A stretch of DNA of 64,000 bases from a virus, in the IMG/VR virus record IMGVR_UViG_3300027749_002876, positions 310,001 to 374,000 of that record. One strand, 5' to 3'. Of this stretch, positions 10,401 through 58,002 are shown piece after piece (position 1 is the stretch's first letter; every line of letters starts with the position of its first letter). The notes under the pieces were generated by a model that worked only from the letters and a program-made list of their open reading frames with translations, did no database searches and had not been told where the DNA came from. Position numbers and translations under genes: made by a program.

Positions 10401-13400
10401 AATTCTAATGCAGTTCCATAATATGGTTGGCTACCGTAGTCAACATTTAATGCATTAACACTTTGTGCATATACGTAAGCGCCAGGATTATTTACAGTTT
10501 CATTGTATACTGACAAATAATCATACATATAGACTGCACCTGCATTAATAAAACTATCTAAAAACTGTGTTGTATTGTTATCAAACAGTGTATCATTGTT
10601 ATAATTTTCATCATCACTTGCATCAAATGTAGTTTCTGCGTATCTAGCAGAAACAGGTGCACTTACCACAAATGAACCTGCTGAATTGAATTTAATTGTA
10701 TGACCAAATTCTGTTCTACCCTGGCTGTGCGGATCATTAATCAATTGCGTTTGTGTATATATTTTTATACCTAATTGGTCTAATACATCTGCATTTAATA
10801 CTGATAATGTTAACTTAGCATTGATATATGCCAAATCTATACTAATAACTTGTATGGTTAAAATATTATCGATTGATGCTGAAGCAGTAACATTTGTAAT
10901 ATTTGCCGCGGCAATTGTATTGGCTACAGTTGTTGCGTTGCCTACAGGTAATGACACTGAATAACCATTAAGTAAAATAGTTGCCGGTTCAGTTAGATTA
11001 CATTCAGCATAACCAGTTATTATACCGTAACTACCGCCACCATATGTATAACGATATACTGCACCTTCTTGATTTTTATTGTTTATTTCAAAAGGAGCAC
11101 CTATTAGTATTTCATTTGCATAAGTATCTACGGCTAAACTGTAACCAAAGTTTGTTCCAACTTCTGGATTAGAATCCATTGAAGTAAATTCTTGCGTTAA
11201 TATAAATTCTGATCCACTAACATTTATAATATCACCTGCTGTTAATGAGCTATAGATGCTTATACTTGATGTAGATACAGCGTATTCATTATCATCAATT
11301 AATGTACCATTAACACTAACAAAGATAGGTTCATCCTGTGCAACCATTGTCATATTACCGGATGAGTTATTCAAAGTTACGGTTGAGCCATTTCTAGTCA
11401 ATGATAGTGTTACAGTAGAACCAATAATTGTTTTGATATAATAAACTTGATTTAATGCTACATTACCATATACATTCCCTGTAAATATTACAGGTGTTCC
11501 GTTTACACCTGCAATTAAACCAGTAACATTATTTAATGTGATAGCATTACTTAATATACTTGATGCAGTTTTTAACAGAATAGTTGGTTGATATATCAAA
11601 GTAAATATTTGTGGAGTATCAGGGAAGCTATTATAAGGAGCTTCAAATGTTTGCACTAATCTTTCAAAAGAATATGCATAACCCAAATCATCAACACCGC
11701 TATCTTGGTAAGGTGCACTTATAATAATATTATTTCCATAATAATTAGTAGAAATAGAATATCCAAAATTATCACCACCATTTGATACGGTGCCAGTACC
11801 TGATTGTGTTGAAGCATTACAAGTAAATTTTATTCCTACTGTATTAGATGATGCTCCTAATGCCACAAAGTCAGTAGTGCCTAAAGATTCTATAACGTAT
11901 ATTCCACCTACATTTAAATTACCAACACCAATGATGTCCGGAGTATTAATGATATTTGAATATTCATATTGGCCGGTAAGTTGAGATTTACGATAAACAT
12001 AAACTAAATTTTGGTCAGATGCAGAAATATACAACCAATTTTGATCTCCGGACAATGCGACAGATGAGCCCCAGTTAACTACAGAATTATTGCTAGGTGA
12101 TTCGATCACTTGATATTCTTGTAATTCATTTATTAACTTATTAATAACTAAATCATAGATATATACTTTTCTGTCAGAATAAGATGCACCGGTTGGTTGT
12201 GATATTACAAATAAATTATCTGTATAAGAAATAGTAGAACCAAAAGAATTACCATTAGTTATTGTTTGTACAATACTAAATGAATTAAACACAGGACTAT
12301 ATGAATAACGATATGCGGCTCCAACTTCAGCATCAGTAACTAAGTATCCTAAATTAGGAGTAATTGCAACTGCACTACCATATGTTATTGATTCAGTTTT
12401 AAATAACTCATCCTCATAAACATAGTTTAAACTCTTGCGATATACAGCCCAAGAGCCGTCATTGTTTTCATCTACCCATACTTTATTTTTTACAAATTCA
12501 CTGTCAAGTAATGGCAATGTATTAATATCTTTAGGTGTCGCAACACGTTGTGATGAGAATTTAAAAGCTACACCTTGACCAAGAATTGTAGTTACAGACG
12601 GTGATAAACTTAATAATATTGTTACTCTAAAATTATCAACAACACTTGAAACAATTCTGTAACCATTAACACTATCATTAAAATTAATAATAGCAAATGG
12701 TTGATACTTAGTTAAATCATGAGGTGTAGCAAATTGCACAGTTACTGTACCATTCATATTATTAACAGCACCTATTACTTGACCAGCACTAGATGGAGTA
12801 TATACTTGCCATGTACTAAGGTAATCTGCTAACCATACATATTCATTTACGTATAATTTAGAAAGTGGTGTAACCGCAGTATTCAACCCATTATAATAAT
12901 ATGCTGAAATTTTTACATCATTAAAATTAACGTATCCAGCATCCGGGAACACTGTGTTTGGAGTATCAGATGGTAATGTAGGCAATACATTAGGGTTATT
13001 GATAGGTCTACCATAATTGAATATTGAATATAGAGGAACTTCTTGCTGTACTCCATCAGTATATACACCGTTAGTTAAGCCAACAATACTAGGATTACTT
13101 GTTAGTAAATTTTGATTCAAACGGAAATCTACAAAGTTATTGTTTAGTACACCACCAAACTCTCCAGTCTTAATGGCCCAGTTATCATAGATATCATAAT
13201 CAATTCCACCTTGTGGTAATGCTAATCCTTTAAAATTATTTGCCGCAACTCTTGTGCCTTTTTCTTTAATAAGATTCTTATAAACATTGACTTGTGTTAT
13301 ATCTGTTAGGTCAGCAAGTGCAAGATAATCACGTGGTCTATATCCAATCAATGACCAACTTAACAAATCACTATCTTGGTCTAAATTACCTTTATTTGTA

Positions 13401-16400
13401 TCATAAAATAGTGTACTTTCATATGAACGTGTGGAACTATTAGGTAACAATCCCTTTTGAATTTCATTATAATCTGTTACTTTCCAATCTTGTTCTTCAA
13501 ATATTTCTTTTGCATTTAATACTTTTAATGCAAACCAATATCTATTTTTATACCTAACGATACTGCCACGAGTATATTTTGAATTAGTACTCCATTCTTC
13601 TATGTTATCTTGATTTAAAACAAACCCCTGTGCATCAACAGTACCGTTCCATTCAGCAGATTTTGTACCTCTGGTTAAAATACGATTTTGTCTTAGTCCG
13701 GTAGTCAAATTATATAAAACATCATTAAACACTGTTACGTTATCAAAAACAATACCATGCTCAAAGTTACTGATATTAAATTGACCATATGCAACAGTAT
13801 CGCCTTCATTTAGTGGTCTAGCACTAAAGAATGTGCTATCACGATTAATAGACAAATCTACACTTTGTATCGGATAGAAATTTTGATTTAATATAAAGTT
13901 TTGTTTTTGTAGTGTCAATGGTTGTACAACATGACTATCTTTATTGATTGTAATTAAATTAGCGGCTGGATTTAAATTAACTAAACTACCTACTTCCCAA
14001 CCAGATTGTGACCAATATAATAATTCAGTAATCATTTGACGCCAGTTAACATCTATACCAGATTCAATTTGGTCAAATAATACACCTTCAGTTAATAAAA
14101 ATTGACCGTAACTGGCAACAAATTGACTTAATGATTGTATATCAACAAATTCTGTACCATAAGGAATTATATTAGTTTTTGTTTCAGTATAATCATTTGA
14201 AATTTGTACTGAAATGTCACCTACGGTGATTTTGTTATAGTTACCATTAATTTTAGGTGTTACTGTTGTAAAATAAGCCGTGTCTTGTGAATTACCAAAG
14301 ACTTTCCAACCTGTACTTGTACTTTGTACAATTATACCACTGTATATAATAGTAGTTGTAGGTATGTTGTCATACAATAGTACACTATAACTTTCATCAG
14401 GAATTAACAATGACGCATTTCTACTGTTTGGTGTTCCTTTTTCTACATAGAATCCAAGCAAACTCTTATCACTAAATCCAGCAAGTCTATAAATTAACCT
14501 TACATCTAAATTATCAAACAAATCAGTAATGTTCTGTGTTGCATTAACACCAACTTGTTTTTCGTAATCAACAATCCAATTAACATAACTTGTCTTAGCA
14601 GTACCAGTACCATATATGGCAACATCACTGATAATCAAATGACTACGATTATTTACTAGATACTGATTAAACTCAGTACTATATTTGTAATTGTCTACAT
14701 CAAACCCTAAGTTAAAAAATTGAGCAGGTTTAGTAAGGGCAAGAATCTTCATTAAATCAAACGGCCAACTACTACTTCTACGATAACTAAATTCTGCAGG
14801 GCCAACATCGCCAACTACCCAATCATTACGGAAAGTTCGTTGACTATAATTACCCATGACAGCATCGAACGGTGATAACAAATTGCCGGCACTGTCTACT
14901 GGTATAACTTGTAACAATTCTTCTCTAATAAATTCAGGTAACACAATTGGATTACCGTTATTCCAATTAATACCCGCAGACATATCTCCCCATAATATTA
15001 AGTTATCACTTGTATAAGGAGCAGGACCGTATCTATTAGTCCACCAACTAGGTTCATCAGTAAAGCCAATCATTTCCCATGGACTTATATTTGGAGTGCT
15101 AGTATCGTAAAAATATTCATATATACCTCTCCAAAAACCTTGTTCAAATGCTTGACCATTAATCTTATTACCTGATTGATTATAGTTGTAACTATACTGG
15201 TCAGTTGATTGATAAAACTGTTTTTTGTATTCAATACGATTTTGTCCAACCCAGTTTAAAAAATACTGGCTATATATTTGTAATACTTCATCATATGAAT
15301 AATCTGTAGTTCTAAAGAATCCAGGTATTACATCATATTTGCTTACTGGAATTAAATCTGACAATTTTAAATTATTGTAAATTCTAGTCTCAAACTCTAA
15401 TAGTGCTTGATCCTTAAAATCAACTAAATATCCATCAATGTAATCACCATACAACTTAGTATAAGAACCATCGTGACCTAATATAAAATATGTAGGTTGT
15501 GAGTAATTAGGATCTAGTACAACGCCGGGTATAAATGAGGGATATAAACCTAACTTAGTTGGTGTATTAGGTATATAACTTCCAAATGTTTGATTGTATT
15601 CTCTAATAGTTACAATATCCCCTGGTAATAAATCTTTTGTAATAGTTAGTGATGGACTATCTGTACTTACTATATAATCTTGGTTAATTATTAATTGAAT
15701 AGTTGAAGTAAAATTATTAACCGTAGTTGTCAAATAAACCAATACACCATAATAATTAGCAGTGTCAAAATTATATATGCGTGTTAATGGATAGATACTT
15801 ACATCTAAAGAATTAGCAAAGGTGTATATATTTGTAGCATATGCTGATTTGTTTGGCAACATATCACTCCAGAAAAAAGGTTCTGAATCAGTTTTATTCG
15901 CAGTAATTTGATCTAATGCATCATCTAATATAGTTGCCGGCGTTTGTCTTGTGGTAAAATCAGTTTTATCTATTGTATAAACCAACAATGATTTAAAATT
16001 TATATATTGTTGACTATTGTATTGTAATGAGTTAAACAAATTGTGATTTGGTGATCTTAACAATGATCCTGGTAATGCCAATGAGGCACTGTTCTGAATA
16101 ATTTTAGTACCCCATGGTACAAGATTTCCCAAATCTCTATAATTGTTTGAACCAAAAATAGTACCAGTTGTGTTTGGATTATTATAGAAAATACTTTGAT
16201 ACTGTCCGCGTATATCGCCTACATTTATTACAGTTACGTCATTATTGAATGGGTTATTTTGTAAGTTGATAGGTATTTGATAATATGCAGTAGCACTTAC
16301 TTGGTCACTTAACAATGTTATTTCAACTACGGTATCAATTAATGGATTAGGTACTGTGAAATTTACAATGGTAGAATTGTCTGTAATAGTAAAAGTGTAA

Positions 16401-45448: not shown

Positions 45449-46651
45449 ATGTCAAAAGTTCTATTAGAAAGCCGTTGGGACGAGACCAAGGAAGCTCTGT
45501 TAGAAGGCTTAAAGGGCACTCGCCGCTCAACTATGGGTGTTATCTTAGAAAATACTAAGAAACAACTACTTGCTGAATCTTCAGTAGGTACAACTACAGC
45601 TGGTAACATCGCTACACTAAACCGTGTGATTCTTCCAGTTATTCGTCGTGTCATGCCAACCGTTATCGCTAACGAATTGGTAGGTGTACAACCAATGACA
45701 GGACCAGTTGGTCAAATTCACACACTACGTGTACGTTATGCAAATAGCTTAGTGGATAACAGTGCCGCTCAAACTAGCGTTACAGCTGGTCAAGAAGCAT
45801 TGAGTCCATTCACAATTGCTCAGGCATATTCACGTCAGCCAAGTGGCGCCGCTGGTGATACAGCAACAGGCTACACTGGTAACAACACTGCTGCCTTAGA
45901 AGGCAACGGTGGTCGTCAAATCAGCGTACAAATCTTACGTCAAGCTGTTGAAGCTAAGTCACGTAAGTTGCAAGCACGTTGGACATTTGAGGCAGCACAA
46001 GATGCACAGAGTCAACATGGTATTGACGTTGAAGCAGAAATCATGGCAGCATTAGCACAAGAAATTACTGCTGAAATTGACCAAGAGATTCTATTGTCGT
46101 TAGCGACATTGGCATCTACTGAGTACACATTCAACCAAGCTACTGTATCAGGTACAGCTACTTACGTTGGTGACGAACACGCTGCCTTAGCTGTTCTAAT
46201 CAACCGTGTTGCTAACTTGATCGCCCAACGTACACGTCGTGGCGCAGGTAACTGGGCTGTTGTATCTCCAGCAAGTTTGACAGTATTGCAATCTGCAACT
46301 ACTTCAGCGTTTGCTCGTACAACAGAAGGTACATTCGAAGCTCCAACTAACACTAAGTTCGTTGGTACATTGAACGGTGCTATGCGTGTATTCGTTAACA
46401 GTTATGCTCCTGATACACAACCTGTATTGGTTGGTTATAAAGGTTCAAGCGAAACTGATGCAGCCGCATTCTATTGCCCATACATTCCATTAATGAGCAG
46501 TGGAGTTGTATTGGATCCATCAACATTCGAACCAGTCGTATCATTTATGACAAGGTACGGATACATCGAATTAACGAATACGGCCAGCTCATTTGGTAAC
46601 GCTGCCGATTACGTTGGAGAAATTGCGGTTCAGAACCTTACGTTTCAGTGA
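45449..46651 (+). CDS. 23: Major capsid protein gp23
   Basis: 400 residues, shorter than T4 gp23 (521). Typical regions: VILPVIRRVMPTVIANELVG followed by VQPMTGPVGQIHTLRVRY, the RKLQARWTFEAAQDAQSQHG stretch, and DIDQEIL-type helix ILLSLATLA. An N-terminal propeptide is expected; the likely gp21 site is after LAE43, just before SSVGTTTAGN. The C-terminus keeps VLDPSTFEPVVSFMTRYG. AGGAGAA precedes the ATG, and a weak CATAAATT box lies at 45427-45434. A strong terminator follows. Confidence 0.95.
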   Translation: MSKVLLESRWDETKEALLEGLKGTRRSTMGVILENTKKQLLAESSVGTTTAGNIATLNRVILPVIRRVMPTVIANELVGVQPMTGPVGQIHTLRVRYANSLVDNSAAQTSVTAGQEALSPFTIAQAYSRQPSGAAGDTATGYTGNNTAALEGNGGRQISVQILRQAVEAKSRKLQARWTFEAAQDAQSQHGIDVEAEIMAALAQEITAEIDQEILLSLATLASTEYTFNQATVSGTATYVGDEHAALAVLINRVANLIAQRTRRGAGNWAVVSPASLTVLQSATTSAFARTTEGTFEAPTNTKFVGTLNGAMRVFVNSYAPDTQPVLVGYKGSSETDAAAFYCPYIPLMSSGVVLDPSTFEPVVSFMTRYGYIELTNTASSFGNAADYVGEIAVQNLTFQ

Positions 46652-46692
46652 AATTCACTACATTTTAATATCTTTACAGATATTATTAAATC

Positions 46693-46718
46693 AAAAGGGT
46701 GCTTTGGCACCCTTTTTT
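46693..46718 (+). terminator. Rho-independent terminator after gp23
   Basis: AAAAGGGTGC/GCACCCTTTT perfect 10-bp stem, TTTG loop and a T-tail. A weaker hairpin, AATATC/GATATT, lies at 46667-46684. Confidence 0.85.
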
Positions 46719-46719
46719 G

Positions 46720-46748
46720 TTGTCCTTTATTAAGTAATAGTATATAAT
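46720..46748 (+). promoter_or_regulatory. Sigma-70-like promoter for the homing endonuclease (TTGTCC-N17-TATAAT)
   Basis: -35 TTGTCC at 46720-46725, 17 bases, perfect -10 TATAAT at 46743-46748. It starts directly behind the capsid-gene terminator, giving the endonuclease its own early expression. Confidence 0.55.
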
Positions 46749-46762
46749 GAAACGCAGCCGAT

Positions 46763-46770
46763 AATAAATA
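46763..46770 (+). promoter_or_regulatory. Late box AATAAATA, five bases before an ATG
   Basis: AATAAATA followed by ACTCT and the ATG at 46776. With late-promoter geometry the message would start at the ATG. Confidence 0.4.
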
Positions 46771-46775
46771 ACTCT

Positions 46776-47756
46776 ATGAAACATTTTATATACAAGACAA
46801 CTCACACAAACGGAAAATACTACATAGGTAGACATAGCACTACTAACCTTGAAGATGGATATCTAGGTTCAGGAAAGTGGGTATCACAAATCAAAAAGAA
46901 GGATAAGTTAGTCCGAGAAATAGTTGAGTTTGTAGATTCATTTGAGGAACTAATAATAAAAGAAGATGAATATTTAGCAGAACATTACGGTAAACCTAAC
47001 TGTATGAATATGAGTAATAAAAGCACAGGCGCAGCCACTGGATTAGCTAATCCTATGACACGTGATGAAGTTAAATCAAAATTTCAAGGGGACAATCATT
47101 GGTCCCATAAGAATCCTGAAATGTTTGCAGAAAAACTAGCAGGAGATAATCATTGGATGAATAAAGATCCAGAACGAAAAGAAGATTTTATAAAAAACAA
47201 CCCCAACCTAGATGGTAGAAACGCAAAGGCAGCAATGAAAAACGGTAAACACAATAGTATCACTAACAATCCAAGTACTATCAACGCACTAAATGGTACT
47301 CATCATTGGCAGAATGGTAAAGCGCCAAACTATGAAGGTAAGCTAAACAAGAAGTTGATTGAAGAAGGTCGTCATAACTTTTTAGGACCAGACACAAATC
47401 AAAAACGAATAGATGAGGGAACACACAACTTTGTAGGTTCAGCCGCAAATCTAAAGATGTTAGCAGAAGGTAAACATCCATCACAACGAAAGATGACTTG
47501 TAGTTGTGGTAAGACTGTTAGTAGTAGTATGTATAAAAGATGGCACGGAGATAACTGTAAAATGAAAGTAATAAAAATGAATTCAAGACAATATGAAAAA
47601 ATGCGTAATGAACAACTACGAGAAACAATGGAGAAAGCAGGCATAACAGATTATACAAATGTATGTCTAAGTGCAGACCAACAAGAATATGAAGTTACAC
47701 TAAAAGATGGAACAGAAGTTATTATTCCTAGTGGATTACCCTATCATTATGATTGA
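46776..47756 (+). CDS. Free-standing GIY-YIG homing endonuclease (Seg-like)
   Basis: 326 residues. The N-terminal GIY-YIG nuclease reads FIYKTTHTNGKYYIGRHSTT (Y6, Y16-I17-G18, R19) with GYLGSGKW and a glutamate helix after it. Residues ~90-240 carry repeated NUMOD-type DNA-binding units (GDNHWSHKNPEM, GDNHWMNKDPER, GTHHWQNG, GRHNFLG, GTHNFVG). A zinc-finger-like CSCG...C segment follows at ~240-262. The last ~45 residues (VCLSADQQEYEVTLKDG...) do not look like a Seg protein and may be an added domain. It lies just after the capsid gene, as T4 segD does. Own sigma-70 promoter, late box and terminators on both sides mark it as an inserted, self-contained unit. Confidence 0.85.
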   Translation: MKHFIYKTTHTNGKYYIGRHSTTNLEDGYLGSGKWVSQIKKKDKLVREIVEFVDSFEELIIKEDEYLAEHYGKPNCMNMSNKSTGAATGLANPMTRDEVKSKFQGDNHWSHKNPEMFAEKLAGDNHWMNKDPERKEDFIKNNPNLDGRNAKAAMKNGKHNSITNNPSTINALNGTHHWQNGKAPNYEGKLNKKLIEEGRHNFLGPDTNQKRIDEGTHNFVGSAANLKMLAEGKHPSQRKMTCSCGKTVSSSMYKRWHGDNCKMKVIKMNSRQYEKMRNEQLRETMEKAGITDYTNVCLSADQQEYEVTLKDGTEVIIPSGLPYHYD

Positions 47757-47760
47757 TTAG

Positions 47761-47768
47761 CATAAATA
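47761..47768 (+). promoter_or_regulatory. Late box CATAAATA upstream of a terminator
   Basis: CATAAATA four bases after the endonuclease stop. Predicted start near 47774; the terminator at 47801-47824 would give a ~50-base transcript. Confidence 0.35.
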
Positions 47769-47800
47769 CAATATCTCAACGGGATGGGAAGTTTACAATC

Positions 47801-47824
47801 AAGCACTATTCGTAGTGCTTTTTT
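47801..47824 (+). terminator. Rho-independent terminator after the homing endonuclease
   Basis: AAGCACTA/TAGTGCTT perfect 8-bp stem with a TTCG tetraloop, followed by TTTT. Confidence 0.85.
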
Positions 47825-47841
47825 GTTATCTACATTATTTT

Positions 47842-47849
47842 GCTAAATA
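47842..47849 (+). promoter_or_regulatory. Late promoter box GCTAAATA for the propeller-gene array
   Basis: GCTAAATA after the terminator. The leader contains AAAGGAA before the ATG at 47869. Confidence 0.45.
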
Positions 47850-47868
47850 CTTCAAAGGAAAACATACT

Positions 47869-48822
47869 ATGGAAATTACTGGTGGAATGACATTTTTAGG
47901 TGGTATGACGGTAACACAACAACCCCCACCCACAAATAAAGCTATTTTTGGATTTGGTGATACTGGGTCAGTAACAGCAATAACAAACCTAGTCAGCAAC
48001 ACTGGTGTAGTTGCTAATGATACAACAGGGGTTGGTACTGCTAGAAGCGGAGTAGCGGCCGCTGGTTATGGAACAGATAAAGCTATATTTGGTTATGGAT
48101 TAACCAGTATAAGTGTATCAATAACTAATCTTGTTTCTAACACAGGTGTGGTTGGTAATGATGTTACTGGAGTTGGTACTACTAGACAACAATTAGCAGC
48201 CGCAGGTTATGGCACTGATAAAGCTATATTTGGTTATGGTTATAATAATAGCAGTGGTGCTAAATCAACGACCAACTTAGTATCAAACACTGGTGTTGTT
48301 GCCACAGATACAACAGGTGTAGGTACTGCTAGATATGGAATAGCAGCATCCGGGTACGGTAGCTCCGGACAAGCAATATTTGGATATGGATATGCACCAG
48401 CACTCACACCAAGCTATACATCAATAACTAACCTAGTATCAAATACCGGTGTAGTAGCTACTGATACCACAGGTGTTGGTACTGTAAGACAATTTCCTGC
48501 TGCCGCAGGCTATGGCACAGATAAAGCTATATTTGGATATGGTCAAATTGGCAACCCGACCTACGCTTATGTATCGATGACTAATCTAGTCTCAAATACT
48601 GGTGTTGTTGCAACAGATACGACAGGTGTCGGCACGATTAGAACTGGGCTGGCAGCAGCCATATACGGTAGTTCTGGGCAAGCAATATTTGGATATGGTA
48701 CAAATGCTAGTAATCAATCAATAACCAACTTAGTAAGTAATACTGGTGTCGTTGCTACTGATACGACTGGGGTTGGCACTGCTAGAAGTTATCTTGCAGC
48801 CGCAAATTACGGACTAGCATAA
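47869..48822 (+). CDS. Six-repeat propeller-like fibre/adhesin protein, copy 1
   Basis: 317 residues. Start chosen at 47869 (MEITGGMTFLGGMTVTQQPP) because AAAGGAA precedes it and the other copies begin alike. A ~20-residue head plus poly-Pro is followed by six repeats of ~48 residues: (K/Q)AIFG(F/Y)G, a variable loop, (I/T/M)TNLVSNTGVV, (A/G)(N/T)D(T/V)TGVGT.R, AA.GYGTD. Six identical-length blades suggest a closed six-bladed beta-propeller like kelch or lectin folds. Loops differ in every blade (DTGSVTA, YNNSSGAKST, YAPALTPSYTS). Probably a receptor-binding or decoration protein. No enzyme motif. First of four tandem paralogues. Confidence 0.7.
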   Translation: MEITGGMTFLGGMTVTQQPPPTNKAIFGFGDTGSVTAITNLVSNTGVVANDTTGVGTARSGVAAAGYGTDKAIFGYGLTSISVSITNLVSNTGVVGNDVTGVGTTRQQLAAAGYGTDKAIFGYGYNNSSGAKSTTNLVSNTGVVATDTTGVGTARYGIAASGYGSSGQAIFGYGYAPALTPSYTSITNLVSNTGVVATDTTGVGTVRQFPAAAGYGTDKAIFGYGQIGNPTYAYVSMTNLVSNTGVVATDTTGVGTIRTGLAAAIYGSSGQAIFGYGTNASNQSITNLVSNTGVVATDTTGVGTARSYLAAANYGLA

Positions 48823-48840
48823 AATAAAAGGAAATATATT

Positions 48841-49767
48841 ATGGACTTTACAGGTGGACTAACATTTACAGGTGGATTGAGTGTAACTCCTCAACCCCCG
48901 CCTTCAAGCAAGGCTATATTTGGATATGGTAATAACGATTCCGTTGATTTATCAATGACTAACTTAGTATCAAACACCGGTGTTGTTGCTACTGACACAA
49001 CGGGCGTTGGTACTGCAAGACAAAATTTATCGGCAACAACCTATGGTACTGATAAAGCTATTTTTGGTTATGGTGATGTTTCGGGTTCATACTCATCATT
49101 AACTAACCTAGTAAGTAATACCGGTGTTGTTGCTACTAATACTGCAGGTGTTGGCACTGCTAGAGGATATCGTTCGGCCGCAGTTTATGGTTCAAGTGGT
49201 CAAGCTATGTTTATTTATGGAGTTAATAATAACTCGATTAATTTGGTTAGTAACACAGGTGTGGTGTCTACAGACTCCGCAGGAGCAGGCTCTGGTAGAG
49301 CATCTACTTCAGCTGCCGGCTACGGCACAGACAAAGCTATTATTGGATTTGGATGGGACGGTAGTAGTGGTTATTTTTCAACAACCAATCTAGTATCAAA
49401 TACAGGTGTAGTAGCAGGTGATACTACCGGTGTAGCAACTGCTAGGGGATTTCTTTCAGCCGCAGGATATGGCACTGATAAAGCTATCTTTGGATATGGT
49501 CAAAGTAGTGGGTATTATTCAATAACTAACTTAGTAAGTAATACCGGTGTTATGGCTACTGACACTGCAGGAGTAGGTACTGCTAGAAGTAAGCTATCAG
49601 CCGCAATATATGACGTAGATAAAGCTATATTTGGATATGGTGATAAACCAGGTGGATTAACATCATTAACCAACAAAGTATCAAATACGGGCATTGTTGC
49701 TAGTGACACTACTGGAGTAGGCACTGCTAGAAAAGGATCGGCAGCGGCAGGTTACGGTTACGCATAA
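48841..49767 (+). CDS. Six-repeat propeller-like fibre/adhesin protein, copy 2
   Basis: 308 residues with AAAAGGAAATATATT before the ATG. The N-terminus MDFTGGLTFTGGLSVTPQPP is almost identical to copy 3 and differs from copies 1 and 4. Six blades; the third is irregular (QAMFIYG, then a shortened loop before NLVSNTGVV), and the fourth has KAIIGFG. Variable loops include DVSGSYSS, WDGSSGYFST and DKPGGLTS. Ends AAGYGYA, as copy 4 does. Same operon as copy 1, 18 bases downstream. Confidence 0.7.
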   Translation: MDFTGGLTFTGGLSVTPQPPPSSKAIFGYGNNDSVDLSMTNLVSNTGVVATDTTGVGTARQNLSATTYGTDKAIFGYGDVSGSYSSLTNLVSNTGVVATNTAGVGTARGYRSAAVYGSSGQAMFIYGVNNNSINLVSNTGVVSTDSAGAGSGRASTSAAGYGTDKAIIGFGWDGSSGYFSTTNLVSNTGVVAGDTTGVATARGFLSAAGYGTDKAIFGYGQSSGYYSITNLVSNTGVMATDTAGVGTARSKLSAAIYDVDKAIFGYGDKPGGLTSLTNKVSNTGIVASDTTGVGTARKGSAAAGYGYA

Positions 49768-49800
49768 TCTAACAAACACAAAACAAAAGGATAATATATT

Positions 49801-50736
49801 ATGGATTTTACAGGTGGATTAACATTTACAGGTGGATTGAGTGTAACTCCTCAACCTCCTCCCCCTTCAAGCAAGGCTATATTTGGTTATGGATACATTA
49901 CATCAATAACTAATCTAGTATCAAATACAGGTGTAGTTGCTACTGATACTGCAGGTGTTGGTACTGCCAGAGGTGAACTTGCTGCCGCAGGATATGGAAC
50001 AGATAAAGCTATTTTTGGATTTGGCTTTGCATATGCCTGGATAAATACGACCAACCGAGTAAGTAATACAGGTGTTGTTGCCACTGATGGACAATCTGCT
50101 GGTACTGGCAGAAATATACTTGCTGCCGCAGGATATGGAACAGATAAAGCTATTTTTGGATTTGGCTTTTATTATAATAGCGGTGAGGGGTCTATCACCA
50201 CTAACGTGACCAACCTAGTAAGTAATACAGGTGTGGTTGCTAATAATACCACAGGTGTTGGTAGTGCTAGAAACAGCCTTGCTGCCACAGGTTATGGAAC
50301 TGATAAAGCTATGTTTGGATATGGCGGTGGAGGTGGTCCAACTAACTTAGTATCAAATACGGGTGTTGTAGCTACTGATGTATCCAGAGTTGGTACTGAT
50401 AGAGCATTACTCGCAGCCGCAGTCTATGGCACTGATAAAGCTATCTTTGGATATGGTACCGGTACCGCTTTATTTTCAGTGACCAACAAAGTATCAAACA
50501 CGGGTGTAGTAGCTACTGATACCACTGGTGTGGGTACTGCTAGATACGGATTAGCAGCCGCTGGGTACGGTGTTGATACTGCTATATTTGGATATGGAAA
50601 TATCGACCGTTTAAACGAAACCCTACCGGTATCAATGACCAATCTAGTATCAAACACCGGTGTAGTTGCTACAGACACAACTGGTGTCGGTACTGCTAGA
50701 TTTAAATTAGCAGCCGCAAGTTACGGCTTAGCATAA
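49801..50736 (+). CDS. Six-repeat propeller-like fibre/adhesin protein, copy 3
   Basis: 311 residues with AAAGGATAATATATT before the ATG. Shares its first ~24 residues with copy 2. Six blades with loops of very different length, from YITS in blade 1 to FYYNSGEGSITTN in blade 3 and NIDRLNETLPVS in blade 6; blade 4 has a GGGGP loop. Framework strands (TNLVSNTGVVATD, GVGTAR, AAAGYGTDKAIFG) are conserved. Inferred receptor-binding or surface protein as for copy 1. Confidence 0.7.
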   Translation: MDFTGGLTFTGGLSVTPQPPPPSSKAIFGYGYITSITNLVSNTGVVATDTAGVGTARGELAAAGYGTDKAIFGFGFAYAWINTTNRVSNTGVVATDGQSAGTGRNILAAAGYGTDKAIFGFGFYYNSGEGSITTNVTNLVSNTGVVANNTTGVGSARNSLAATGYGTDKAMFGYGGGGGPTNLVSNTGVVATDVSRVGTDRALLAAAVYGTDKAIFGYGTGTALFSVTNKVSNTGVVATDTTGVGTARYGLAAAGYGVDTAIFGYGNIDRLNETLPVSMTNLVSNTGVVATDTTGVGTARFKLAAASYGLA

Positions 50737-50771
50737 ACAAACAAATCAAAGTATATACACAGCCTTTTTTT

Positions 50772-50779
50772 GATAAATA
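50772..50779 (+). promoter_or_regulatory. Late promoter box GATAAATA inside the propeller-gene array
   Basis: GATAAATA between copies 3 and 4. The leader contains AAAGGATAA before the ATG at 50800, so copy 4 can be transcribed separately. Confidence 0.5.
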
Positions 50780-50799
50780 ATAGCAAAGGATAATACATT

Positions 50800-51735
50800 A
50801 TGGAAATTACTGGTGGAATGACATTTAGTGGTGGTATGGTTGTGACACAGCAACCTCCTCCCCCTTCAAATAAAGCTATTTTTGGATATGGTCTTATTAC
50901 CGCGGCGGTAACAGCAATAACCAATCTAGTATCAAATACAGGCGTTGTTGCTACTGATACAACTGGTGTTGGAACTACTAGACAAAATCTAGCGGCCGCG
51001 GGCTATGGCACTAACAAAGCTATATTTGGTTATGGTCAACCTAGTGGGATGACAAATATAACCAATCTAGTATCAAATACAGGCGTTGTTGCTACTGATA
51101 CAGCAGGTGTAGGCACTGCAAGACGCTTTCTTGCAGCCGCAGGTTATGGAAGTGATAAAGCTATATTTGGATACGGAGGACCTGATGGTGGTTATTATTC
51201 ACTAACCAACCTAGTAACAAATACTGGTGTTGTTGGCAATGATGTCACAGGTGTAGGCACCGGTCGATATGGATTAACAGCCTCAGTGTATGGTACCGAT
51301 AAGGCCATATTTGGATATGGGTTTAATGGTTCAGCAATGACAACAACAACTAACCTAGTATCAAATACGGGTGTAGTGTCTACTGATACTGCAGGTGCCG
51401 GCACAGCCAGATATCAGCTAGCAGCCGCAGGGTATGGAACTGATAAAGCTATATTTGGCTATGGAACCACTGACCAGACGAATGGTTTATCAATTACTAA
51501 TCTAGTAAGTAACACAGGTGTAGTTGCTACTAATACAACAGGTGTTGGAACTGCTAGATGGGGTCTTGCAGCCGCAAGTTATGGTGTTGATACTGCTATA
51601 TTTGGATATGGAAATGGTCCATCTTTTGTATCAATGACCAATAAAGTATCAAACACCGGTGTAGTAGCAACGGATACGACAGGAGTTGGTACTGCTAGAA
51701 GCCAACTTGCAGCCTCAAGTTACGGTTACGCATAA
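50800..51735 (+). CDS. Six-repeat propeller-like fibre/adhesin protein, copy 4
   Basis: 311 residues. The N-terminus MEITGGMTFSGGMVVTQQPP pairs it with copy 1, giving the order type A, B, B, A along the array. Six blades with loops LITAAVTA, QPSGMTN, GPDGGYYS, FNGSAMTTT, TTDQTNGLS and NGPSFVS. It has its own late box and is followed by a strong terminator at 51754-51776. Confidence 0.7.
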   Translation: MEITGGMTFSGGMVVTQQPPPPSNKAIFGYGLITAAVTAITNLVSNTGVVATDTTGVGTTRQNLAAAGYGTNKAIFGYGQPSGMTNITNLVSNTGVVATDTAGVGTARRFLAAAGYGSDKAIFGYGGPDGGYYSLTNLVTNTGVVGNDVTGVGTGRYGLTASVYGTDKAIFGYGFNGSAMTTTTNLVSNTGVVSTDTAGAGTARYQLAAAGYGTDKAIFGYGTTDQTNGLSITNLVSNTGVVATNTTGVGTARWGLAAASYGVDTAIFGYGNGPSFVSMTNKVSNTGVVATDTTGVGTARSQLAASSYGYA

Positions 51736-51753
51736 TCTCACAAACACAAAAAC

Positions 51754-51776
51754 AAAGGCTCTACAGAGCCTTTTTT
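51754..51776 (+). terminator. Rho-independent terminator after the propeller array
   Basis: AAAGGCTC/GAGCCTTT perfect 8-bp stem, TACA loop, T-tail. Confidence 0.85.
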
Positions 51777-51799
51777 CTTATCTAAAATTTATTAGACTA

Positions 51800-51805
51800 T
51801 ATAAT
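51800..51805 (+). promoter_or_regulatory. -10 element TATAAT immediately before the DUF6165-type gene
   Basis: TATAAT ends six bases before the second of two adjacent ATGs (51809 and 51812). The -35 is weak. A leaderless start is possible, as at gp47. Confidence 0.35.
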
Positions 51806-51808
51806 ACT

Positions 51809-52186
51809 ATGATGATACACGCTCCAATCTCAATCGGTGAACTAATAGATAAAATCACTATATTAAAAATCAAGTCTATCTTAATTGTAGATACAATCAA
51901 ACTTAAAAACATAGAACAAGAACTACAACTATTAGAAGAACTAAAAGATAGTCTTAATTTAGATATTGACACACTTGAAGAACTACAGTCTAAGCTTTAT
52001 GGTGTAAACTTAGAGTTATGGCACATTGAGAACTATAAACGAGAATGTGAAAAGAATCAAACTTTTGATGGTAAATTCATTGACTCGGCACGACAAGTAT
52101 ATCTTAAAAACGATTTACGTGCTGAAATCAAACATAGTATCAACACAATGTTTGGTAGCACTATCGTTGAAGAAAAAAGCTATTAA
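51809..52186 (+). CDS. DUF6165-like protein, 125 aa
   Basis: Start at 51809 (MMIHAPISIGELIDKITILK); a longer upstream frame would cross the terminator. The pattern P(I/V)S.GEL.DKITIL.IK, helical middle, LW.IE...R, F.....(A/V)Y..ND.RA..K..IN...GS...EEKSY matches the DUF6165 family as I know it: small helical proteins of unknown function often found near surface-glycan genes in bacteria and occasionally in phages. The stop overlaps the convergent HNH gene. No ribosome site. Possible cargo gene. Confidence 0.65.
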   Translation: MMIHAPISIGELIDKITILKIKSILIVDTIKLKNIEQELQLLEELKDSLNLDIDTLEELQSKLYGVNLELWHIENYKRECEKNQTFDGKFIDSARQVYLKNDLRAEIKHSINTMFGSTIVEEKSY

Positions 52187-52548
52187 ATTGTTAAATCAGT
52201 ATCAATAGTTATATCTAAAATACTCTTACGCTTTTCTTTTAGTTTCTTTTGGTACACTCTATTACAATTGGCACACAATGTTTTAAGATTACGTTTATCT
52301 TTATTCTTCTTGTCACCGTCTTTATATACAATGTCTAATTGACATTTATCTTCTGGTATAAAACCACACTTCTCACACTTGTCTTTCTTCTGTAACAAGT
52401 AACCATACGTGCTGTTATATGCACCTTTAGCACAATCAACACAATACTTGTGCCACTTGGTAAAGCCATGTTTACTCACACCGTTAGGTTTTGCTAATGA
52501 TACTCTACAATGAGAACATAGGGGTCTGTTTGGCTGTCGTGTAAGCAT
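52183..52548 (-). CDS. Degenerate HNH/treble-clef endonuclease-like protein
   Basis: 121 residues on the minus strand against its neighbours. Zinc ligands are clear: C11/C14, C36/C39, C58-EK-C61 and C92-AN-C95. The HNH frame is CEKCGF...QLDIVYKDGD...NLKTLCANCN. The usual DH pair is replaced by V74-Y75 and the final His by N96, so the metal/general-base residues of a typical HNH nuclease are missing. The rest of the fold is intact, so it may bind DNA without cutting, or belong to a variant subfamily. The opposite strand, lone position and own flanking terminator suggest a mobile insertion. Confidence 0.65.
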   Translation of the reverse strand: MLTRQPNRPLCSHCRVSLAKPNGVSKHGFTKWHKYCVDCAKGAYNSTYGYLLQKKDKCEKCGFIPEDKCQLDIVYKDGDKKNKDKRNLKTLCANCNRVYQKKLKEKRKSILDITIDTDLTI

Positions 52549-52560
52549 TATATATTTAAT

Positions 52561-52590
52561 AAAAAAGCACTAATAGGATTTTTTTTAGTG
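52561..52590 (-). terminator. Possible leftward terminator upstream of the HNH gene
   Basis: On the minus strand CACTAA/TTAGTG (6 bp) is followed by CTTTTTT. It would stop antisense transcripts from the fibre region entering the HNH gene. Confidence 0.4.
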
Positions 52591-52610
52591 GGAAGAAATT
52601 ATACCTAACT

Positions 52611-52618
52611 GATAAATA
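52611..52618 (+). promoter_or_regulatory. Late promoter box GATAAATA for the long fibre gene
   Basis: GATAAATA directly followed by an overlapping TATAAT (52619-52624) without a good -35. The leader contains TTAGGAT before the ATG at 52645. Confidence 0.55.
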
Positions 52619-52644
52619 TATAATAGACAATATTAGGATGAACA

Positions 52645-55600
52645 ATGGCATTTGAACCTTTCGGTTTAGTCGGTGGTGTAACAGTAGGAATACCACCAAT
52701 ATTGGTAATAGACAGTAACGGCAATGTAACTTCTAACCGTGGTAACATTGCGAACCTATCTACGGCAGTTATTACTTCATCAGGTAATATTACTGCCCCG
52801 TTCTTTATTGGTAATGTCGTTGGAAATGTATCTGGAAATTTCGTAGTTCCTGGCACAAATACCAGTGTTATCTTTAACCAAGAAGGTAATGCAGGGGCCA
52901 GTGATAATCTACAGTTTAACTATTCTACAAATGTATTAAGTTTAACGGGTAATCTAACTGTTACTAATATTTTAACAGATAATTATCTATACGCTAACGG
53001 TGCTCCGTACGTATTTGCGGCACAAGCGTCCGGAACTAATACACAGATACAATTCAATACAGCTGGATTACTAGATGCTAGCGCAAACTTAACATTTAAT
53101 AATAGTACTCAAACATTTGCTACGAATAATATTTCTGCTACTACAGCGGTAATTACTACGATTCAATCAGCCAATGTAACAGCTACCGGTAATGTAGTAG
53201 CCGCAAATGTTATTGCTAATTTTATTGGTAATTTATCTAATGCTAATAGTGTTTCAGCTAACTATTTTACTGGCGTACTAACAACAAATGCACAACCTAA
53301 CATTACCAGTGTTGGTACATTATCAGGATTAACACTAGCAGGGAACATTATTCCAGCCGCTGATAATCTATATAATTTGGGTAGCAATGTAGCTCGCTGG
53401 AACGATTTATACTTAAGTGGCAATACTATCTATTTAGGTAATGCTACGATAGAAGCAAATAGTACAGCTTTAATTTTCACTAATCCAAATGGTTCTAATT
53501 ATGTATTTGGTGGAAATGATTTCTCAATAACCGGAAATATATCAGCCGGCGGCAATTTAAGTATAGGGAACATATCTGCTGGTAACTTAGTATCAGCTAA
53601 TTTTCTAACAGGTAGACTAACTACTGAATCACAACCTAATATTACTACAGTTGGAGTATTGGGTAATTTATCAGTAGCTGGTAATATCAATACTGGTAAC
53701 ATCAGTGCTGTCACTAGAGTTACAGCAAATCAAATATCTGGACTATTAATTACAGGTTATCAACCAAATGTTACCAGTGTTGGTACATTAGCATCATTGA
53801 ATGTAACTGGTAATATAACCACTACCAGTGGTGTATTTATTGGTAATGGTAGTGGACTATCTCAAATAGTTGCAGCCAACATTGTTGGATCTGTACCAAA
53901 TGCCGCTTATGCTAGTAATGCAGGTTTTGCTACACAGGCTGCACAGTCCGATTTAGCAAGTGTAGCCAATATTGCTAGTGTAGCTAATACAGCAACAACT
54001 GCGGGAACTGTTACAACTAACGCACAACCTAACATTACAAGTGTTGGCACATTAACTACATTAAATGTTACAGGTAATGTCAATGCTAATAATTTTGTAG
54101 GTAATTTTGTAGGTAATATTACCAGTGCAAATTTTGCATATTATGCAGGCAACGTTACTGTAGCTTCTCAACCCAATATTACAAGTGTTGGTACATTAAC
54201 TTCATTAGCTGTAAATGGACCCATAACAGCCGCAAATATCACTGCTAACACAGGTAGATTTACTGGTAATGGTAGTGGACTATCTCAATTACAGGCCTCA
54301 AATATTGTTGGTACTGTTGCTAATGCAACATATGCGGTGACAGCCGGAACAACAACAACTGCCGGTACTGTTACTACAAATGCACAGTCTAATATTACTT
54401 CTGTTGGTACACTAACATCACTGGCGGTAACTGGAAACATTGCTGGTGGAAATATAGCTGGTGGAAATTTAGTTTCTGCTACATACTTTACTGGAACAAT
54501 TTTAACTAGCTCACAACCCAATATTACTAATGTTGGAACACTATCATTATTAAATGTAACTGGAAATGTAACAGCCGCAAATATTACTGCCAGTACTGGT
54601 AGATTTGCAGGTAATGGCAGTGGATTAACAAACTTATCTGGGGCAAATGTAGTTGGTACTGTTGCTAATGCAACATATGCATTAACAGCTGGGTTTACTA
54701 CAACAGCCGGAACAGTAACAGATAATGCACAACCCAATATCACTTCAGTTGGTACACTACTATCACTAGCTGTAAGTGGAAATATTACTGGTTTAAATGT
54801 AGCTGGTGGTAATTTAGTTTCTGCTAATTATGTAACCGGAACATTAACAACTCAGGCTCAACCAAATATTACGTCAGTTGGCACACTTTCATTATTAAAT
54901 GTAACTGGAAACGTAACATCAGCAAATATTACAGTTACTACTGGTAGATTTGCAGGTAATGGTAGTGGTTTATCTCAACTTTCTGGGGCAAATGTAGTTG
55001 GTGATGTAGCTAATGCAACATATGCAACAAATGCAGGTAGTTCAACTACTGCAGGCACAGTAACAACTAATGCACAACCTAACATTACAAGTGTTGGTAC
55101 ATTAACATCATTAGATGTAACTGGAAATATTACTGGTACAAATGTAACTGGTGCTAACTTAGTTTCTGCTAATTTCTTAACCGGTACATTAACAACAAAT
55201 TCTCAACCTAACATCACTTCAGTTGGAACATTAACTTCACTTGCTGTAAGTGGAACTATTACAGCCGCAAATATTACTGCTACTACTGGTAAATTCACAG
55301 GTAATGGTAGAGGATTATCACAATTAACAGGATCTAACGTTATTGGCACAGTGGCCAATGCGACATATGCACTTAATGCAGGTAATTCAATTACATCTAA
55401 TACTGTAATTGATAACGCACAACCCAATATTACGTCAGTTGGAACATTAACTTCATTGATAGTAAGTGGAAATATTACTGGAGCTAATATTACTGGTGGT
55501 AATTTAGTTTCTGCTAATTTCTTAACCGGTACATTAACAACAAGTGCTCAATCTAACATTACAAGTACAGGTACATTATCATTATTAAACGTAAGTGGTA

Positions 55601-58002
55601 ATATTACAGCTACAAACATTACTGCTAATACTGGTAGATTTGCGGGTAATGGTAGTGGACTAAGTCAATTAACAGGTGCTAACGTTTTAGGTACCGTGGC
55701 TAATGCAACATTTGCAGTATCAGCTGGATCATCAAATACGTCCGGTACTGTAACAACCAATACTCAACCTAACATTACAAGTGTTGGTACACTAACTACT
55801 TTAACAAGTTCAGGTAATATTACAGCACCGTATTTTATTGGTAATGTTGTTGGAAATATATCTGGGAATTTTGTAGTTCCCGGTACAAACACCAGTGTTA
55901 TCTTTAATCAAGAAGGCAATGCAGGCGCAAGTGATGCGCTTAGGTTTAACTATTCTAGCAATGTTTTAACAGCAAATGGTAATATTATTGCTACTTATTT
56001 TATTGGTAATGGTAGTGGATTATCACAACTAACTGGTTCTAATGTAGTTGGAACAGTAGCCAATGCAACGTTCTCGGTATCAGCAGGGTCATCAAATACA
56101 GCAGGTACTGTTACTACAAATGCACAGCCTAACATTACTTCAGTTGGAACATTAACATCATTAGTTGTAACTGGAAATATTACTGGTGCTAATGTAGCAG
56201 GTGGTAATTTAGTTTCTGCTAATTATGTTACTGGTACACTAACAACAAATTATCAACCTAACATTACAAGTGTTGGTACATTGACTGGTTTGTCAAGTTC
56301 AGGTAATATCACAGCTCCATACTTCTTTGGTAATTTAATAGGTAATATAGATGATGCTAATTATGCATACTATGCAGGAAATGTAGTTAATCCATTACAG
56401 CCAAATATTACAACAGTGGGCATATTAACTAGTTTAAGTGTATCTGGTAATATTATAGGTGGTAACTTAGTAAGTGCTAATTTCTTAACTGGTACACTTA
56501 CTACACAAACACAAGCTAATATACATACAGTTGGTAATTTAGAATTCTTAAATATTGACACAAGTTTACCAGGAGCCAATGGTAATATAACTTTTAATGG
56601 TAGTATGAGTGGTACTGGCCCGCAAAGTGATATTGATATTACCGGTGACCTTTATGTTAGTAACATCTATTCTACAATTGTAGCCGGAGTACTTAGTACA
56701 AATGAACAACCAAATGTAACATTAGTTGGTACATTAACAGAATTGACAGTACGAGGTCCTGTTGATTTAGGTAGTGTATCTAATTTAACAATTACAGGTG
56801 GTAATGCAAATTATGTATTGTCTACTAATGGTTCAGGTAATTTATCTTGGCAACCAGCAGGTGGTGGATCAGCCGGCGGAACTAACACTCAAGTGCAGTT
56901 TAATAATCTAGGTTTATTAGATGGTAATTCATCATTTACATTTAATAATACAACTAAGACACTAACTGTATTAGGAAATATTACATCAAATAGTACAATT
57001 CAAAGTAGTAGATTTATATCAAATGTAGCAAATGGAACTAGTCCTTTTGTAGTTACATCTACTACAAAAGTAGCAAATTTAAGTGTAGAAACTGCAAATA
57101 CTGCAACATTTGCAACCAGTTCAACAAATTCAAATGTTGCATTAACTGTAGCAAATGCATCACAACCTAACATTACTTCAGTTGGTACATTAACTGCACT
57201 AAATGTTAATGGTACAGGAAGTATTACAGGTAATATACGAGTAGGTAATTTAGATACAAATGGTACAATAGTATCAACTAATTCAACTGTTGTTGGAAAT
57301 GCAAATGTTAATGGTACTTTACAAGTAGGTAGTGTTGGACAATTAAGAGTGTTAGGTACTGTTAACACTGATGGATCTTCTAATGTGAATTTGGGCAATG
57401 TTTCAAATCTTCATATTAGCGGTGGAATAAACGGATACGTATTAAGCACTGACGGTGCAGGTAACTTAAGTTGGGCAACTGGTGGCGGTGGCGGTGGCAA
57501 CGGAGTACCTGGTGGGTCAAACACACAAGTACAGTATAATGACGGTGGTGTATTTGGCGGTAGTTCTTTCTTAACATTTAATGAAGTAACAAATACTTTA
57601 CAAGTAGCTGGTAATTTAGTAGCAAATAGCACTCAAGTTGGTGCCGGGATTTACAAATTTTCAACACAATATGTTTATTTTGCAACAACTACATCTACTG
57701 CATCCAGTCAAGTTTTATGGACTACTTTGGCATCAAATGTTTCAGGAGTAGACTTTCATATTATAGCAACAGATGTCACGGGTGCAACAAGACAGTCAGT
57801 TAAAATATCATCATTGTTATATGGAAATATTGTTGCTTTCAATGAATATGGTGGGTTACAAATAAATGGGGGAACTGGATCATTCTCAGTTGACTATAAT
57901 GCAGGTAATATTATTGTTCAACCAAGTGTACGATTGTTAGTTACTCCTGACTCGTCAAATTCAACAACTTACAAAATGACAATTACGGAGTATGCCCCAT
58001 GA
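52645..58002 (+). CDS. Long GN-repeat tail fibre/appendage protein, 1785 aa
   Basis: Begins MAFEPFGLVGGVTVGIPPIL, a short attachment-type N-terminus, then GNIT/GNVT-rich beta repeats. Residues ~430-1200 hold a long-period repeat of ~90-100 residues: TTNAQPNITSVGTL, TSLAVTGNITG, GGNLVSANYLTGTL, GNGSGLSQL.G.NVVGTVANATY. A module VVGNVSGNFVVPGTNTSVIF appears at ~54 and again at ~1062. Near residue 240 is RWNDLYLSGNTIYLGN, also found in the partial gene at 62766. The last ~120 residues form a distinct C-terminal domain (VDFHIIATDVTGATRQSV to STTYKMTITEY) shared with the next gene. It is typical of trimeric beta-structured fibre proteins; the receptor is unknown. Confidence 0.75.
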   Translation: MAFEPFGLVGGVTVGIPPILVIDSNGNVTSNRGNIANLSTAVITSSGNITAPFFIGNVVGNVSGNFVVPGTNTSVIFNQEGNAGASDNLQFNYSTNVLSLTGNLTVTNILTDNYLYANGAPYVFAAQASGTNTQIQFNTAGLLDASANLTFNNSTQTFATNNISATTAVITTIQSANVTATGNVVAANVIANFIGNLSNANSVSANYFTGVLTTNAQPNITSVGTLSGLTLAGNIIPAADNLYNLGSNVARWNDLYLSGNTIYLGNATIEANSTALIFTNPNGSNYVFGGNDFSITGNISAGGNLSIGNISAGNLVSANFLTGRLTTESQPNITTVGVLGNLSVAGNINTGNISAVTRVTANQISGLLITGYQPNVTSVGTLASLNVTGNITTTSGVFIGNGSGLSQIVAANIVGSVPNAAYASNAGFATQAAQSDLASVANIASVANTATTAGTVTTNAQPNITSVGTLTTLNVTGNVNANNFVGNFVGNITSANFAYYAGNVTVASQPNITSVGTLTSLAVNGPITAANITANTGRFTGNGSGLSQLQASNIVGTVANATYAVTAGTTTTAGTVTTNAQSNITSVGTLTSLAVTGNIAGGNIAGGNLVSATYFTGTILTSSQPNITNVGTLSLLNVTGNVTAANITASTGRFAGNGSGLTNLSGANVVGTVANATYALTAGFTTTAGTVTDNAQPNITSVGTLLSLAVSGNITGLNVAGGNLVSANYVTGTLTTQAQPNITSVGTLSLLNVTGNVTSANITVTTGRFAGNGSGLSQLSGANVVGDVANATYATNAGSSTTAGTVTTNAQPNITSVGTLTSLDVTGNITGTNVTGANLVSANFLTGTLTTNSQPNITSVGTLTSLAVSGTITAANITATTGKFTGNGRGLSQLTGSNVIGTVANATYALNAGNSITSNTVIDNAQPNITSVGTLTSLIVSGNITGANITGGNLVSANFLTGTLTTSAQSNITSTGTLSLLNVSGNITATNITANTGRFAGNGSGLSQLTGANVLGTVANATFAVSAGSSNTSGTVTTNTQPNITSVGTLTTLTSSGNITAPYFIGNVVGNISGNFVVPGTNTSVIFNQEGNAGASDALRFNYSSNVLTANGNIIATYFIGNGSGLSQLTGSNVVGTVANATFSVSAGSSNTAGTVTTNAQPNITSVGTLTSLVVTGNITGANVAGGNLVSANYVTGTLTTNYQPNITSVGTLTGLSSSGNITAPYFFGNLIGNIDDANYAYYAGNVVNPLQPNITTVGILTSLSVSGNIIGGNLVSANFLTGTLTTQTQANIHTVGNLEFLNIDTSLPGANGNITFNGSMSGTGPQSDIDITGDLYVSNIYSTIVAGVLSTNEQPNVTLVGTLTELTVRGPVDLGSVSNLTITGGNANYVLSTNGSGNLSWQPAGGGSAGGTNTQVQFNNLGLLDGNSSFTFNNTTKTLTVLGNITSNSTIQSSRFISNVANGTSPFVVTSTTKVANLSVETANTATFATSSTNSNVALTVANASQPNITSVGTLTALNVNGTGSITGNIRVGNLDTNGTIVSTNSTVVGNANVNGTLQVGSVGQLRVLGTVNTDGSSNVNLGNVSNLHISGGINGYVLSTDGAGNLSWATGGGGGGNGVPGGSNTQVQYNDGGVFGGSSFLTFNEVTNTLQVAGNLVANSTQVGAGIYKFSTQYVYFATTTSTASSQVLWTTLASNVSGVDFHIIATDVTGATRQSVKISSLLYGNIVAFNEYGGLQINGGTGSFSVDYNAGNIIVQPSVRLLVTPDSSNSTTYKMTITEYAP
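54000..56460 (+). repeat. Long-period (about 290-bp) repeats in the fibre gene
   Basis: About eight diverged copies of the unit encoding TTNAQPNITSVGTLTSL and the following GNI...GNGSGLSQL segment. Many stretches are nearly identical in DNA, so copy number may vary by recombination. Confidence 0.7.

Follow-up and report, generated by a model that had tools for sequence, protein, structure and literature searches.

Multi-copy propeller-like proteins with hypervariable loops in a freshwater giant phage

Four tandem genes for probable propellers with two hypervariable sites

The freshwater giant phage represented by IMG/VR record IMGVR_UViG_3300027749_002876 (524,565 bp) encodes a family of repeat proteins that are probably virion adhesins or receptor-binding tips, forming a recombining repertoire of variable loops carried on one face of a propeller. 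Four of the genes (w1 to w4) stand in tandem in the window, the 64,000-nt stretch at positions 310,001 to 374,000 of the record, to which the coordinates below refer unless another sequence is named. An original prediction, made from the letters of this stretch, had described them as six-repeat propeller genes with hypervariable loops. All four are on the plus strand: w1 [47869–48822, 317 amino acids (aa), with a longer GTG start possible at 47815], w2 (48841–49767, 308 aa), w3 (49801–50736, 311 aa) and w4 (50800–51735, 311 aa). Each encodes a short N-terminal tag followed by exactly six repeats of ~48 residues, and the N-termini alternate A-B-B-A (MEITGGMTF, MDFTGGLTF, MDFTGGLTF, MEITGGMTF), both as predicted.

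The consensus repeat is KAIFGYG-[loop]-(S)(I/M/L/V)TNLVSNTGVVATDTTGVGTAR-[xx]-LAAAGYGTD. The loop, defined here as the residues between FGYG and TN, is rich in Thr/Gly/Ser, is 5–14 residues long (3–14 in the original prediction) and differs in all 24 blades of the window. The segment between FGYG and TNLVSNTGVV was thus correctly singled out as variable, although its downstream boundary is near-constant rather than strictly constant (TNKV, TNRV, INLV and NTGIV occur) and a second hypervariable site, the two residues following the conserved Arg (TAR-xx-LAAAG), had been missed. Among the 98 blades of the record there are 98 distinct loops and 61 different dipeptides. Column entropy across 93 standard blades is 0–1.3 bits in the framework (one position reaches 1.9 and most are near zero), 2.8–3.6 bits in the loop core and 3.3–3.4 bits at the dipeptide. 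Variability is confined to these two sites, and the equivalent turns expected on the opposite face are conserved. The dipeptide site matters because in a four-stranded antiparallel blade the connection joining strands 2 and 3 shares one face with the connection that leads from strand 4 to strand 1 of the next blade. With strands assigned by eye, the domain starts at strand 2 and finishes with strand 1; this topology would place loop and dipeptide together on a single face, opposite the two chain termini.

The array at 47869–51735 is real but the family is not restricted to it. Sampling of the stretches around further propeller copies adds 12 full copies and a two-blade copy in other clusters, so that the record holds 16 full six-blade genes in about six clusters and one two-blade gene. 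Single propellers also occur amid unrelated genes (G000:C1, 287.5 kb, L089; and 512–519 kb, L091), which suggests that the genes may move as individual units. A pseudogene reading was rejected: the frames are full length, and the simplest source of the TAA flags is each gene's own stop codon. The family occurs in hundreds of viral contig stretches, and no family of Pfam, PHROGs or NCBIfam covers the propeller copies. Scattered, weak NCBIfam matches were disregarded. For FHMPC_DH one member attains 2.6e-6, and a window member scores 12 bits where the cut-off is 500 bits. Searches of phage and plasmid nucleotide collections returned no propeller relatives, to which a low-complexity filter may contribute, and the literature searched, with partial coverage, held no description of the family.

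A predicted six-bladed scaffold

A blade profile was applied to 144 distinct proteins from IMG/VR contigs, an Oligoflexia metagenome-assembled genome (MAG) and this record, and 130 of them have exactly six blades. Three larger proteins have 12, 18 and 18 blades, arranged as linker-separated groups of six, and the remainder are mostly contig-end fragments, a two-blade gene or recombinants. Such a repeat number, quantised in sixes, is expected of a ring closing at six. The multi-propeller proteins, in which two or three six-blade domains follow one another, are at L219:5527-8283, L228:4477-7227 and L212:6928-8892. In a profile search of PDB sequences the only significant matches are the seven-bladed propeller lectins of the PLL/PHL type (E = 8.6e-6 for a profile of 60 sequences; 3.4e-6 for PHL and 9.6e-6 for PLL2 for a profile of seven); the reversed control made from the same seven sequences matched nothing relevant. 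The strand order, starting at strand 2 and ending with strand 1, matches the pattern of velcro-closed propellers. Repeat quantisation and the specific lectin match thus support the closed six-bladed beta-propeller of the original prediction, as far as sequence can indicate a fold. Its assignment to the kelch type did not survive: membership is rejected, as Kelch_1 (PF01344) matches no copy even at E 10 and a second kelch family, PF24681, matches a single member at E 0.12, well short of its cut-off. What kelch propellers share with these proteins is a comparable repeat length and strand/loop rhythm, judged by eye.

The Photorhabdus lectins PLL, PHL and PLL2 (PDB 5mxe, 6rfz; PMC5584973) resemble the phage proteins in being propellers of similar, ~48-residue blades, aligned in the same register over three to four blades (E 3e-6 to 1e-5, lost on reversal). 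They differ in having seven blades instead of six and in being bacterial lectins rather than virion proteins, without a hypervariable loop set. The fucose sites of PHL are Trp pairs between blades on the side of the termini (PMC5584973).

Another counterpart in layout is the phrog_19111-type protein (GWFGGG...STVDRITYATDTATASVRGPL; for example L081:9439-10410 and L259:7972-8907), labelled 'unknown function'. Its repeats also number six, it bears the same N-terminal tag and its variable segment falls in the same place, although its own framework sequence differs. Profile–profile comparison with the propeller family gives a full-length match (80.7%, versus 0.3% for the reversed control). The record contains no detectable match to this type in a search whose controls were likewise unmatched. 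In the cultured, tractable Synechococcus phage S-SKS1 (L289) this sister family occurs at ~13 places, all hypothetical in the stretch read.

Diversification of loops and blades

Between blades within the genome the framework differs at proportions of 0.087 non-synonymous (pN) and 0.486 synonymous (pS), which indicates old divergence under purifying selection and not recent copying. A recent duplication of the four genes was rejected on the same ground (framework pS averages 0.49) and because blades are unpaired by position. Of 93 blades, 18 have their nearest relative within their own gene (4.7 expected; a number reached in none of 2000 shuffles) and 36 have it within their own cluster (22 expected); in 15 the nearest relative sits at the same position, versus 14.8 by chance. 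Blade kinship follows gene and not position, pointing to duplication, conversion or shuffling within genes and away from co-linear gene duplication.

Loop and framework were compared in gene pairs using uncorrected Nei–Gojobori estimates of non-synonymous (dN) and synonymous (dS) divergence; for the dipeptides these draw on few sites. Across four informative pairs (framework pS 0.13–0.23) dN is 0.015–0.064 in the framework, 0.045–0.25 in loops and 0–0.59 at dipeptides, three of the four dipeptide values being 0.43 or more. With gapped loops included, the L077/L078 pair gives 0.19 for loops, 0.43 for dipeptides and 0.036 for the framework. In most informative pairs the dN of loops and of dipeptides is several-fold to ~20-fold that of the framework.

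Near-identical contigs show three patterns. Most have no propeller change at all: the window and L010 differ by two single-nucleotide polymorphisms (SNPs) across 12.9 kb, with zero in the propellers, in 11 loci the L017 alleles show no difference, and identical propellers persist over many samples and assemblies. In a second pattern, divergence forms islands. L077 and L078 are 85–94% identical over one propeller gene and 97–100% in all other bins; in L073/L237, L058/L074 and L031/L083 the propeller genes are roughly 10–40% different per bin and the downstream sequence mostly 0–3%, and in L058/L074 the partner gene (described below) between two diverged propellers differs by merely 1–3%. The third pattern concerns single blades. 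Exactly one 144-nt blade is missing in L050 relative to L052, with 20-nt junction homology and the rest of 4 kb identical. L037 and L032 have zero substitutions in 9.8 kb outside the propeller gene, yet where one has a six-blade gene, the other has two genes, of three and four blades, that contain new loops. The recombination of blades and genes originally proposed is supported by the deleted and exchanged blades and by the islands spanning whole genes. Conservation of loops between related phages, named at the outset as evidence against such diversification, is seen in part: loops are identical between strains at about 0–1% backbone divergence, but in other pairs they diverge far faster than the flanks. 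The likeness to an antibody-like scaffold holds as an analogy only: loops are stable between near-identical strains, and no programmed or hypermutating diversifier was found.

N-terminal tag and domain architecture

In the window copies a short tag is all that precedes the propeller. The tag of w1 (MEITGGMTFLGGMTVTQQPPPTNK, 47869–47940, plus strand) is proposed as a virion anchor since it is common to laminin-G, Gly_rich_2 and phrog_19111-type proteins, and the tags of w2 (48841–48912), w3 (49801–49875) and w4 (50800–50874) are on the same strand. Across the family the tag has ~20 residues (for example MDFTGGLTFTGGLSVTPQPPP) and also heads laminin-G proteins, proteins with Gly_rich_2 plus Fn3, and the phrog_19111-type repeat proteins. 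The propeller is always C-terminal, with 0–2 residues left after it. In relatives the modules N-terminal to it are Fn3, Calx-beta/Ig-like, glycine-rich (Gly_rich_2), laminin-G, Mtd_N and TTAQRP-type fibre modules, as well as a T7-tail-fibre-N-like module that scores 24.8 bits against a cut-off of 25.2. In L236:4888-6426 the major tropism determinant N-terminal domain (Mtd_N, above cut-off) is fused to a six-blade propeller. The putative recognition domain of the fused relatives thus lies C-terminal to virion-attachment or fibre modules, which, to judge by domain order, is the position of a receptor-binding tip; this supports the surface-recognition role originally predicted.

Mtd_N is known from a tropism protein diversified by a retroelement. 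Receptor-binding proteins of that class, including the major tropism determinant, share with the propellers a variable recognition surface on a constant scaffold. The phage family differs from them in its length-variable loops, in the spread of its diversity over many paralogues and in a record without reverse transcriptase.

Partner gene and bacterial homologue

The commonest neighbour family of the propeller genes comprises partner proteins of ~190–223 aa (35 distinct proteins in 72 loci; the loci overlap and are not a count of independent phages), with no match in Pfam, PHROGs or PDB. Members of ~220 aa are encoded at L090:8172-8840, L172:8914-9555 and G000:C1:171723-172379. The record has two partner copies, one between propellers and one beside a tag/Gly_rich_2 protein. 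At a guess, the partner is a chaperone or an adaptor. The sole cellular homologue found of the propeller is in the Oligoflexia MAG BroJett040 (L172:7749-8885), in a chromosomal-looking neighbourhood; it has six blades behind a Tat-like signal and is followed by the same partner gene.

Proposed role and alternatives

We propose that the four genes encode late virion proteins in which a short anchor tag precedes a closed six-bladed beta-propeller, late expression and virion location being inferred. The tag would dock the conserved, termini-bearing face onto the particle or tail, so that the variable face points outward. Its two loop sets (strands 2–3, and strand 4 to the next strand 1) would bind surface features of the host or surroundings, the ligand most likely being glycans. 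The 16 full paralogues, with 98 different loops in all, would constitute a standing repertoire, diversified by homologous recombination between blades and genes and by fast amino-acid change at the loops; the scaffold would be kept by purifying selection and the loops would be under relaxed or diversifying selection. Several observations weigh against this proposal. Propellers are unchanged in many near-identical strain pairs, which implies that diversification is episodic, and the very recent changes amount to 22 SNPs, not enough to establish positive selection. The sugar-site Trp of PLL is absent, and there is no Trp in the phage consensus framework, so that sugar binding is not implied by the PLL similarity. 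The bacterial copy with its Tat-like signal indicates that the domain can also serve a cell.

The propellers might instead decorate the capsid, their tag docking to the head in a Hoc-like manner, and adhere weakly and broadly to mucus, exopolysaccharide or particles, with higher encounter rates as the benefit instead of receptor choice. For a single tail, sixteen paralogues would be a large number; one of the clusters immediately follows gp23; and among the PHROG partners of laminin-G proteins with the tag, some bear the label 'head and packaging, virion structural'. The fused relatives with T7-tail-fibre-N-like, Mtd_N and fibre-type modules point to the tail, however, as does another cluster near tail-sheath and neck genes, and we regard decoration as possible but rather unlikely. 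It is improbable that the loops play no part in binding and, as free linkers exposed to solvent, drift neutrally while selection acts on the scaffold alone. Their Thr/Gly/Ser-rich composition would fit, and in most pairs loop dN/dS is near 1, not clearly higher, but for the dipeptides some pairs have dN above dS (0.43 versus 0.15 in L077/L078, on few sites), variation is found only at the two sites expected on one face while other-face turns are conserved, and many whole gene copies are maintained with intact frames.

How the variation arises has alternatives of its own. Short reads assemble repetitive genes poorly, and the L050/L052 and L031/L037 events rest on single contigs. Assembly error retains a residual probability for the blade-level events (L050/L052, L037/L032), yet it is unable to invent new loops. 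That the blade rearrangements as a whole were produced by metagenome assembly, with no blade shuffling in real phages, seems quite improbable: the L037 form holds loop sequences missing from the other form, the L050 junction homology is just 20 nt, and the divergence islands of 15–40% in near-identical contigs and the lack of positional orthology among blades are independent evidence. A programmed diversifier (a diversity-generating retroelement, invertase or phase-variable cassette) might be suspected from 98 of 98 loops differing, several tandem genes and homing endonucleases nearby. We consider it extremely unlikely, given that loop length varies as well as sequence, that identical propellers persist across many samples and assemblies, and that synonymous divergence between blade frameworks is high (pS 0.49). 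The retroelement in particular was rejected and is already largely refuted, the 524-kb record containing no reverse transcriptase in a search with positive controls, although the record may be incomplete.

The kind of protein is already known. The phage receptor-binding proteins phi11 Gp45 (five blades), PRD1 P2 and phiKZ gp131C likewise use a propeller as the recognition domain at the particle periphery, but they are single genes with five or seven blades, and the part of the source available describes no multi-copy repertoire or hypervariable loop set for them (PMC4901313). New here are the hypervariable repertoire in many copies, the tag shared with other proteins and the partner gene. Tentatively, and with the balance somewhat against it, these elements could form a variable-receptor system free of reverse transcriptase, in which the anchor tag displays interchangeable propellers, laminin-G lectins and glycine-rich domains on one particle, a dedicated ~220-aa partner assists, and recombination exchanges the blades of a multi-gene repertoire, altering which hosts or surfaces are recognised. 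The family would be a natural modular binding-protein library, whose scaffold of ~300 residues carries as many as six pairs of loops on a single face. It provides a candidate virion anchor tag and a case in which receptor diversification through blade recombination, with no retroelement, can be tested, and the scaffold may be useful for designed binders.

Genomic context of the window array

The array lies between the gene for a gp23-type major capsid protein (45449–46651, plus strand; Pfam Gp23, E 3.2e-98) and that for a large repetitive tail-fibre-like protein (52645–58002, plus strand; PHROG 6942 tail fiber protein, E 2.6e-19), which in a comparison of 31 relatives mark the upstream and downstream edges of a variable insertion region. 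A GIY-YIG-type homing endonuclease gene (46776–47756, plus strand; PHROG 314, E 1.9e-24; Pfam GIY-YIG below cut-off) adjoins the array between gp23 and the propellers. The gp23–fibre interval (46652–52644) holds different cargo in relatives with 93–97% gp23 identity: homing-endonuclease-like genes and a fatty-acid-desaturase-like gene (both by eye), tag plus laminin-G protein in L108, and one propeller plus a tag/Gly_rich_2 protein in L101. No propeller was found at this site in most relatives compared, which makes it a general cargo insertion hotspot and no dedicated propeller locus.

A late-promoter-like TGATAAATA stands upstream of w4 (50771–50779, plus strand), and its sole other exact copy in the window (52610–52618) precedes the fibre gene at 52645. 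Similar boxes lie ~27 nt ahead of several cluster-head propeller genes and the fibre gene. The number of TGATAAATA copies within the window is at chance level, so the link to late promoters is suggestive, by placement only; genome-wide, TTGATAAATA occurs 16 times versus 6 in the backward control.

Near other propeller clusters, a Gram-negative porin gene (L088:11364-12248; Porin_4, E 4.7e-21) occurs amid the cluster, with a similar gene seen by eye in L055, and hints at a Gram-negative host with such porins. Genes resembling an aspartate/glutamate racemase and a dicarboxylate symporter (by eye) adjoin the same cluster at L088:15386-17929. Elsewhere in the window, the minus strand carries an unusually long open reading frame of 5889 aa (1466–19135).

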